A stretch of 21,542 nucleotides of DNA from a virus: IMG/VR virus record IMGVR_UViG_3300049893_002597, positions 1 through 21,542 of that record, one strand, 5' to 3'. Shown one piece after another: positions 6,593 through 7,786 of the stretch. The notes beneath the pieces were generated by a model. That model did not search any database, was not told where the DNA came from, and saw nothing but the letters and a program-made list of their open reading frames with translations. Each line of letters opens with the position of its first letter. Position 1 is the stretch's first letter. The translations under genes and the position numbers were made by a program.

Positions 6593-7134
6593 ACTTCCTC
6601 CCAGTCTGCGTCCATGACCTCGCACTCTTCCAACTCGGTGGCGTACTCGTTCTTCGACGCGTAGTACGGGTCGAAGTCCTGCGAGAGGTCTCCGGTGACG
6701 TACCGGAACACGTCGTCGTCATCGTAGATGTCGAAGTCAAGGTCGTTGGCGTCCAACTCGAACTCTTGCGAGTACTCCGTGGACGTAACTTCACGCACTT
6801 GGAACGTGACCATGATGTTACGCGACTTGACCTCAAGGTCCTCGTCGTTGACGACTACGTCGTACCCGGTGACCGTGGTGATGGTCTCCGGAGCCTTGTC
6901 GGGGGCCAAGTCGGACCCGTCCGTGTTCTCCGGTGTAACCTCACGTGTGTTGACCACGATGCTGGAGTCCAGCGAGTACTTGAACTTCGTTCCGAGCTGC
7001 TTAGCCATGGCTTCGGCAGCTTCCGCGACAGCCATGGCGACGCTGTCGCTACCGGGGTACATGCCCTCCACGTCGAAGGCTATGCCGACCTGTACCCTGC
7101 CCTCTGCACCACACTCGTTGTTGACCTTGCTCAC
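6589..7134 (-). CDS. Acidic protein, function unknown (181 aa)
   Basis: GTG 7134 follows GGAGGT and overlaps the stop of the preceding gene (GTGA). The protein begins MSKVNNECGAEGRVQVGIAF. Its middle includes an Ala-rich helix (VAMAVAEAAEAMAKQLG) and its second half is strongly acidic (DANDLDFDIYDDDD). Such charge is common in phage inhibitors that mimic DNA, but no specific family is recognised and the idea is untested. Gene order shows co-expression with the helix-turn-helix and DUF932-like proteins. Confidence 0.75.
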   Translation of the reverse strand: MSKVNNECGAEGRVQVGIAFDVEGMYPGSDSVAMAVAEAAEAMAKQLGTKFKYSLDSSIVVNTREVTPENTDGSDLAPDKAPETITTVTGYDVVVNDEDLEVKSRNIMVTFQVREVTSTEYSQEFELDANDLDFDIYDDDDVFRYVTGDLSQDFDPYYASKNEYATELEECEVMDADWEEV

Positions 7135-7394
7135 TTGCTACCTCCTTCGTAGCCGATGGTTCCGAAGCCAGGTTCCCAGCCTCCGTAGTGGATGTCGTCA
7201 GCCTCGACAACCACGCGAAGCTGCACGTAGTTACCGTCCGGCTGCTCGCACGTCCTGACCAGCTGCCCAATCAAGCTGTCACCTACGGTGAGCGAGGGGT
7301 TCTTGGCCCCACGAGACTCAGCTTGGGCTAGCAGGTCGCGGAGATTGCGTTCGCTAAGCGAAACGCGTATCTCCCCGTCTAGCCTTACATCCAT
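7131..7394 (-). CDS. Hypothetical protein (87 aa) downstream of the tRNA-like RNA
   Basis: ATG 7394 lies behind AAGGAGG; the frame is open further upstream, but that part runs through the structured RNA and is not protein-like. The product begins MDVRLDGEIRVSLSERNLRD and continues with a helix and several strands. A pattern of two beta strands, a LLAQAESR helix and VQLRVVVEAD suggests a small alpha/beta fold. No family is recognised. It is the first gene after the structured RNA at 7437-7550 and starts the coupled series reaching to 4269. Confidence 0.75.
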   Translation of the reverse strand: MDVRLDGEIRVSLSERNLRDLLAQAESRGAKNPSLTVGDSLIGQLVRTCEQPDGNYVQLRVVVEADDIHYGGWEPGFGTIGYEGGSK

Positions 7395-7412
7395 GCTGCC
7401 TCCTTCCATACG

Positions 7413-7433
7413 CGTGGTACCCAGTGTACCACG
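7413..7433 (-). other. Hairpin 3' of the tRNA-like RNA
   Basis: On the minus strand CGTGGTAC-ACTGG-GTACCACG forms a perfect 8-bp stem with a 5-nt loop. It begins three bases after the discriminator base of the tRNA-like element and ends 18 bases before the next start codon. No U-run follows. It could mark the 3' end for processing or limit transcript flow. Confidence 0.6.
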
Positions 7434-7436
7434 TAG

Positions 7437-7513
7437 TGGAGCGGGTGGGAATCGAACCCACGTGCTGTCGGTTGCGCTTCGGCTTTGCCGACAGTCGAGA
7501 CCACTTCCGCCCC
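7437..7513 (-). ncRNA. tmRNA-like tRNA-like domain without tag domain
   Basis: On the minus strand 77 nt fold as follows. The acceptor stem GGGGCGG (7513-7507) pairs with CCGCTCC (7444-7438), including a G3-U70 wobble, followed by discriminator A (7437). The T-arm is GTGGG-TTCGATT-CCCAC (7461-7445), perfect. A helix CTGTCGG/CCGACAG (7494-7488 with 7471-7465) replaces the anticodon stem and has a 16-nt loop. The D-region AAGTGGTCTCGA is too short for a D-stem. G3-U70 plus A73 is the alanyl-tRNA synthetase identity set. A stemless D-region ending in TCGAC, and a P2 helix in place of an anticodon arm, are tmRNA hallmarks. There is no tag reading frame or pseudoknot domain, and CCA is not encoded. 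No anticodon can be assigned, so an ordinary tRNA is unlikely. A decayed tRNA or tmRNA is the main alternative. Confidence 0.7.
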
Positions 7514-7514
7514 G

Positions 7515-7550
7515 TCGAGGTGCCACGGACTCCCCTCCGTAGCACCTCAA
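7515..7550 (-). other. 15-bp hairpin immediately 5' of the tRNA-like RNA
   Basis: Minus-strand bases 7550-7536 pair with 7529-7515 (15 pairs, two of them G-U) around a GGGGAG loop at 7535-7530. It ends one base before the tRNA-like element and starts 12 bases after the stop codon of the upstream gene. It probably insulates or directs processing of the RNA, or acts as an attenuator. Confidence 0.75.
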
Positions 7551-7561
7551 GTTGACGCGTA

Positions 7562-7786
7562 CTACTCTGCGTTGGCCCACTCAGGCCTAGCGAACACCCT
7601 GATGCCAGCCTCGTCGAGAGCTTCGCTCAGCCCCTTCAATCCATCGTTCGTGTACCACACGTCAATGGGCGTCTTGACCACCCTCCACGGGTGTTGGATG
7701 AGGTACTGCAGCGACTCTGCCTCCTTACGAGTGAGCGTAAGCACGACACGCTCTTCGTGGACCTCCTTGACCTCGCACCTTGCCAT
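7562..7786 (-). CDS. Hypothetical protein (74 aa)
   Basis: ATG 7786 follows ACGGAGGAAACGT, a good ribosome binding site. The product begins MARCEVKEVHEERVVLTLTR. An amphipathic segment TRKEAESLQYLIQHPWRVV is followed by TNDGLKGLSEALDEAG. No family is recognised. It is the last gene before the structured RNA, and its upstream leader contains one copy of the conserved 28-bp intergenic element at 7808-7835. Confidence 0.75.
   Translation of the reverse strand: MARCEVKEVHEERVVLTLTRKEAESLQYLIQHPWRVVKTPIDVWYTNDGLKGLSEALDEAGIRVFARPEWANAE

Follow-up and report, generated by a model that had tools for sequence, protein, structure and literature searches.

The window analysed here, by which we mean the whole stretch of 21,542 nucleotides, is an IMG/VR contig of 21,542 bases that encodes DNA polymerase A, a terminase, an SU10-like portal, and DUF932 and GP88 proteins. 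On its minus strand, from 7513 to 7437, lies a 77-nt RNA gene with the tRNA-like domain (TLD) of tmRNA, the RNA by which bacteria rescue stuck ribosomes, and without the mRNA-like domain; we refer to it as a mini-tmRNA. It sits between the stop of one gene and the ATG of the next, the two genes being co-directional, with a hairpin on either side (Table 1), and neither a promoter nor a terminator consensus was detected at the locus. A mechanical open reading frame from a GTG at 7580, a longer version of the downstream gene, crosses the mini-tmRNA; because the stems covary, as described below, it would be the RNA rather than this frame that is under selection here.

The terminase of the window shares about 26% identity with its best cultured-phage matches and 44-51% with eight IMG/VR contigs. 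A model search of the terminase relatives at 44-51% identity returned ordinary tRNAs only and no copy of the mini-tmRNA, and the nearest relatives with long records (42 and 48 kb) likewise carry none. Since these relatives are without a detectable copy, the mini-tmRNA would be an accessory, dispensable gene. A search for relatives of the locus through the DUF932 protein gave none, and the window copy, when compared with phages by BLAST, gave short tRNA-like matches only.

Table 1. Coordinates of the features of the window, followed by tRNA-like loci (L numbers) found in prokaryotes
Feature	Position	Strand	Basis
Mini-tmRNA gene	7437..7513	-	RF00023, 51.9 bits; model R1, 79.1 bits (the window copy is among R1's 22 training sequences)
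Acceptor stem, 5' strand GGGGCGG; partner CCGCTCC at 7438-7444; pair 3 is G-U	7507..7513	-	sequence
Stemless D region AAGTGGTCTCGA, 12 nt, with tmRNA motifs GG and TCGA	7495..7506	-	sequence
P2, CTGTCGG/CCGACAG, with loop CAAAGCCGAAGCGCAA holding a small inner hairpin; replaces the anticodon arm	7465..7494	-	centroid fold and covariation
T arm, GTGGG-TTCGATT-CCCAC	7445..7461	-	sequence and alignment covariation
Discriminator A73; the next bases are CTA, so CCA is not encoded	7437..7437	-	sequence
Upstream co-directional gene, 74 aa	7562..7786	-	ORF list
Downstream co-directional gene, 87 aa, ATG at 7394 after GGAAGGAGG	7131..7394	-	sequence and ORF list
15-bp hairpin, ending 1 nt 5' of the mini-tmRNA	7515..7550	-	fold of 7390-7565
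8-bp hairpin, beginning 3 nt after the discriminator base	7413..7433	-	fold of 7390-7565
Nostocales mini-tmRNA	L139:6134-6214, L138:6981-7061, L145:4016-4096 and further loci		
Candidatus Poribacteria mini-tmRNAs	L130, L133, L151, L154, L170, L173, L176, L184, L199, L200		
Candidatus Eremiobacterota tRNA-like genes	L140, L144, L146, L152, L165, L171, L175, L205 and others		

Read from the sequence of the minus strand, the RNA has the layout GGGGCGG-AAGTGGTCTCGA-CTGTCGG-CAAAGCCGAAGCGCAA-CCGACAG-CAC-GTGGG-TTCGATT-CCCAC-CCGCTCC-A. An earlier note on this DNA had described a 7-bp acceptor stem with G3-U70 and a discriminator A, a perfect T arm with a TTCGATT loop, and, in place of the anticodon arm, a 7-bp helix (P2) with a 16-nt loop preceded by a 12-nt stemless D region, and the sequence agrees on each of these points, the T stem being of 5 bp and the discriminator A73. 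It had also let the D region end in CTCGAC; the motif is present, but its closing C is the first base of P2. The mRNA-like domain and the pseudoknots are missing, as had been claimed, since about 310 positions of the RF00023 model are replaced by 16 nt, which leaves no tag reading frame and no space for either a tag frame or pseudoknots. According to the centroid fold, the 16-nt loop probably contains a tiny hairpin of its own. When the RNA is folded without its flanks, the minimum-energy structure mispairs P2, whereas the centroid of the fold of 7390-7565, which includes the flanks, has P2, the T arm and the two flanking hairpins (z -3.1).

The searches with Rfam models and ARAGORN that the earlier note had proposed gave a consistent picture. 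RF00023, the tmRNA family, scores 51.9 bits, above its cutoff of 47 (E 5.2e-18), and is the sole family to pass in the Rfam search of the mini-tmRNA, in which overlapping matches to models of the same clan, such as mitochondrial tmRNA (RF02544), are suppressed when they score lower; under other filters, in a short stretch, the same model gives 43.3 bits. The match spans model positions 1-374 with the whole mRNA-like domain deleted, and within the Rfam clan the tmRNA model beats that of tRNA. The tRNA family (RF00005) is distinguished by features that the window RNA does not have, namely a D stem and a 5-bp anticodon stem with a 7-nt loop. ARAGORN, run on the whole window, called neither a tRNA nor a tmRNA here, and it called none of 123 viral mini-tmRNA copies. 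A split tmRNA with its coding piece elsewhere was rejected, as P2 is closed within one piece.

Evidence that this structure is maintained comes from its relatives. In an alignment of 22 sequences, 95.5% of the cells are paired compared to 68.1% in shuffles, cells changed on both sides number 132 against 40.0, and the covariation score is 0.695 against 0.134; shifting the partners by one column lowers pairing to 51-57%. P2, of which the first pattern scan had fixed the first base only, is 94% paired, with double changes in six of its seven pairs. The acceptor-independent set of 39 distinct rows, drawn from the scans described below, behaves in the same way (covariation 0.665 against 0.138). The compensatory changes that had been proposed as a check are thus strong in P2, and they bear out, together with RF00023 and the acceptor-independent copies, the reading of this RNA as the tRNA-like domain of a tmRNA that lacks its mRNA-like part. 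Overall, the window RNA is almost certainly a TLD-only tmRNA gene.

The breadth of the family was established by pattern scans and a covariance model. The first pattern required a short tRNA-like domain with GGGG, TCGAC, a T loop and CTCCA within one tRNA length, and matched at least 120 viral contigs; in 84,980 prokaryote genomes it matched 105 stretches, a good number of which are other things. Because GGGG and CTCCA were imposed in that scan, the frequency of G3-U70 was not taken from it. Three acceptor-independent scans instead used inner-loop and T-arm sequence only, leaving acceptor and D region unconstrained, and matched 57, 7 and 30 contigs in all; 56 of the 57 inner-loop matches are full matches to the covariance model R1. 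With this model, built from 22 diverse sequences including the window copy, copies in 194 IMG/VR contigs reach E <= 1e-6 and are thereby confirmed (99 + 45 + 50 not previously counted). Its controls, tRNA-like genes of Eremiobacterota and 3' ends of full tmRNAs, stay under that level with one exception (L135, 42.7 bits), and ordinary tRNAs reach about 27 bits or less. Confirmed copies are 64 to 92 nt long. Some viral copies (L002, L020, L042, L048, L052, L058, L073, L085, L086) form a short class, 64-65 nt long, without the inner hairpin, P2 being closed directly by a small loop.

Among the carriers are cultured Streptomyces phages, which hold the mini-tmRNA inside tRNA clusters. In the related phages pSt2308, LuckySocke and BRock, of about 110 kb, it occupies the same position behind a tRNA-Val, and their P2 sequences differ with pairing largely kept. 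The records of pSt2308, LuckySocke, Shaeky, BRock and Alone3 have no feature annotated there. Each of 31 carrier records examined, several of them of 110-115 kb, has a single copy, and neither SmpB nor a full tmRNA was found in any of the 31, with the SmpB search positive in 10 bacterial controls. A tRNA gene lies within 2 kb of 29 of 111 distinct viral copies, on the same strand in 28 of these and within 200 bp in 26. Endonuclease VII genes recur near copies, but this probably reflects common ancestry of one phage group and the gene was rejected as a linked one. The phages MrMagoo and PA_L9 were likewise rejected as carriers, both having a full-size tmRNA: that of the Mycobacterium phage MrMagoo (101.5 bits) is unannotated and lies about 600 bases upstream of a GOLLD RNA (182 bits) in the same tRNA cluster (L127, record 57334-57677, and L127:3630-4047), and that of the Pseudomonas phage PA_L9 (L128 2927-3311), a Samunavirus, is of the permuted beta type and also unannotated, with similar 3' ends in the phages SM1, PaMx31, UF_RH6 and vB_PaeS_FBPa45.

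As an alanine identity element, G3-U70 is well established in both tRNA-Ala and tmRNA. It is completely conserved in tmRNA (PMC3985003), and the same holds in the viral family: of the acceptor-independent copies, 64 distinct ones have an acceptor that can be recognised, and in every one of these pair 3 is a G-U wobble and the discriminator an A, with no acceptor mismatch. The 64 have 19 different acceptor stems, and a second wobble occurs in one only. Among the 39 rows, G-C occurs at pair 4 in 19, C-G in 14 and U-A in 6, while pair 3 is always G-U. Two further pattern matches are without an acceptor, of which L314 looks like chance and L273 like a copy missing its 5' end. The D region of the same rows, which were not chosen on it, has GG in 39/39 and TCGAC in 31/39, the window having CTCGAC; the motifs expected to face SmpB would thus be kept in this set.

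Related RNAs occur outside the viral family. Nostocales have a conserved 81-nt mini-tmRNA in long arrays of 19-27 tRNAs (ARAGORN), between Tyr and Glu tRNAs, and an identical copy is present on the Nostoc sp. MS1 plasmid NZ_AP023446, where no feature is listed. In Anabaena PCC 7120 a related trn operon of 26 genes is active under translational stress, and a paper on it does not mention tmRNA (PMC10272220). Candidatus Poribacteria have a mini-tmRNA of their own type, 83-85 nt long, with an inner hairpin like GAAAGCGTGGTTGCTTTC; in the four loci checked there were no tRNA genes nearby. Matches in Candidatus Eremiobacterota were rejected as mini-tmRNAs: they are tRNA-like genes of 69-72 nt with short D arms, sometimes two per locus, to which ARAGORN assigns the anticodons GTC, GAT, GAG and GAC. 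In those caught by the pattern pair 3 is G-U, and they resemble tRNAs that accept alanine while having anticodons of other amino acids.

RNAs of this kind are known. According to two tmRNA surveys, a 'TLD only' tmRNA (tmID 11587) is found in the Mycobacterium phage DS6A, and in E. coli tmRNA is inhibited by a molecule similar to the DS6A type, with or without the capacity to be alanylated, perhaps through titration of SmpB (Mao et al. 2009 via PMC4131195, PMC11915505). DS6A is the sole TLD-only phage case named in the surveys of 2014 and 2025 (PMC4131195, PMC11915505), and the latter lists 97,179 tmRNA sequences, of which 79 are from phages and just 9 are 'standard, no CDS' (PMC11915505). Compared by description, the DS6A RNA is, like that of the window, barely more than a tRNA-like domain, with no tag frame and no pseudoknots, and the window RNA holds the whole of that domain and nothing more. 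Full bacterial and phage tmRNA (RF00023, for example in mycobacteriophages) shares with it the acceptor with G3-U70, the D-region motif, the T arm and the start of P2, whereas the mini-tmRNA is without mRNA-like domain, tag frame and pseudoknots and has P2 closed by a short loop. Mitochondrial tmRNAs of jakobids and oomycetes (RF02544) likewise have no tag frame (PMC3985003, PMC11915505), but are organellar and mostly permuted or in two pieces, unlike the one-piece, phage-borne mini-tmRNA. The CDS-less plastid tmRNAs of Mallomonadaceae, of about 65 bp, are close in size to the 64-65-nt viral class (for example L002 and L058) (PMC11915505), but they are plastid genes akin to the plastid tmRNA of ochrophytes. 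The TLD-only kind is thus already known and the decoy hypothesis already published, and the window copy is a further member. What is new here is the breadth of the family and its invariant alanine identity; no earlier report of these, or of the recurrent inner hairpin, was found in the literature covered (open-access literature and few subscription journals).

The reading that best explains the observations, and that we consider probable, is that the phage makes a TLD-only tmRNA which is charged and inhibits trans-translation of the host. Because the tRNA-like domain is retained, host tRNA-processing enzymes would cut the mini-tmRNA from the operon transcript, CCA would then be added, host AlaRS would charge it with alanine via G3-U70, and it would bind SmpB and EF-Tu like full tmRNA. 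Because the template is missing, it would compete with host tmRNA for SmpB and stalled ribosomes, which fits the published inhibition, and during infection trans-translation would be damped and fewer unfinished proteins tagged and degraded. That the RNA is expressed, charged and bound by SmpB, and that it benefits the phage, is here predicted from sequence. The decoy inference of the earlier note agrees with the published work on the DS6A type and is plausible, and an inhibitory function seems the better bet, with the shortness of P2 relative to full tmRNA weighing against it.

SmpB titration alone does not explain the invariant G3-U70 and A73, because the published inhibition has no need of alanylation. 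Either the charged form competes better, as EF-Tu binding and ribosome entry need charge, or the RNA accepts a nascent chain. The latter leads to an alternative that we regard as doubtful, an active rescue without a tag, in which the alanylated mini-tmRNA enters an empty A site with SmpB, takes over the nascent chain (+1 alanine) and leaves by drop-off or with a release factor. The presence of G3-U70 and A73 in 64/64 copies, stricter than titration requires, is in its favour, as is the conservation, along with SmpB, of mitochondrial tmRNAs without a tag frame (PMC11915505). Ribosomes would then be freed and phage proteins left unmarked for proteolysis. Against it, a similar RNA has been published as an inhibitor, and we know of no route by which the process could finish after peptidyl transfer when there is no template. 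A wider conjecture, unlikely in our view, is that a large, so far overlooked phage RNA family needs alanylation and enters stalled ribosomes with host SmpB, freeing or silencing them untagged, that many phages thereby run a tagless rescue of their own, and that Nostoc-type cyanobacteria have adopted the same RNA into stress-type tRNA arrays.

It would also be conceivable that the element serves only as a site of RNase P and 3' processing that separates neighbouring phage mRNAs, as its place between co-directional genes with a hairpin on either side might suggest. Hairpins are indeed enriched directly upstream of mini-tmRNAs: those with z below -2 occur at 23% compared to 5% at random places, and the 42 nt upstream have a mean z of -1.08, random places -0.16 and tRNAs of the same loci -0.68. 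The downstream 8-bp hairpin is not a general trait of the family; leader hairpins like that of the window are also present at L074, L309, L016, L049, L282 and L021. However, G3-U70, a covarying P2 and a tmRNA-type D region are all kept and none of them is required for processing, which makes such a role improbable.

The 3' end of ssrA frequently serves as attP in phages, and BLAST of a mini-tmRNA returned such ends among enterobacterial phages, so that decay of a tRNA or tmRNA has to be weighed, as has an attP fragment of ssrA that integration left behind. An attP holds the 3' part only, whereas here both halves are present together with a closed, covarying P2, and the acceptor is perfect in all 64 acceptor-independent copies. 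The earlier note had dismissed decay on account of the perfect stems, and covariation and about 190 further copies uphold this. As for the broken stems in homologous phages that it had named as counter-evidence, there is one weak case, the partly broken copy of the Streptomyces phage Alone3 (L126:2987-3063; 49.8 bits), which is damaged in T stem and P2 and lies where LuckySocke has an intact one. The Alone3 copy is probably decay in progress; decay or attP origin as an account of the window RNA is very improbable. A functional tRNA-Ala of unusual form, its anticodon arm rearranged, could invoke G3-U70, A73 and the T arm, but is hardly credible, given the missing D stem and 5-bp/7-nt anticodon arm, the silence of ARAGORN on 123 copies, the win of the tmRNA model in its clan and a loop highly variable in sequence and length.

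Finally, with about 190 copies in viral contigs, the phage tmRNA without a coding sequence is no longer a curiosity of one mycobacteriophage. It escapes standard annotation, being missed by ARAGORN and left without a feature in the records of the phages. Two mechanisms are set apart by the invariant G3-U70, titration of SmpB that needs no charge and an alanylated participant, and since cultured Streptomyces phages have the RNA, the idea of interference can be tested. Together, the number of copies, the covarying structure and an alanine identity that does not vary suggest that interfering with trans-translation is a common strategy among phages.
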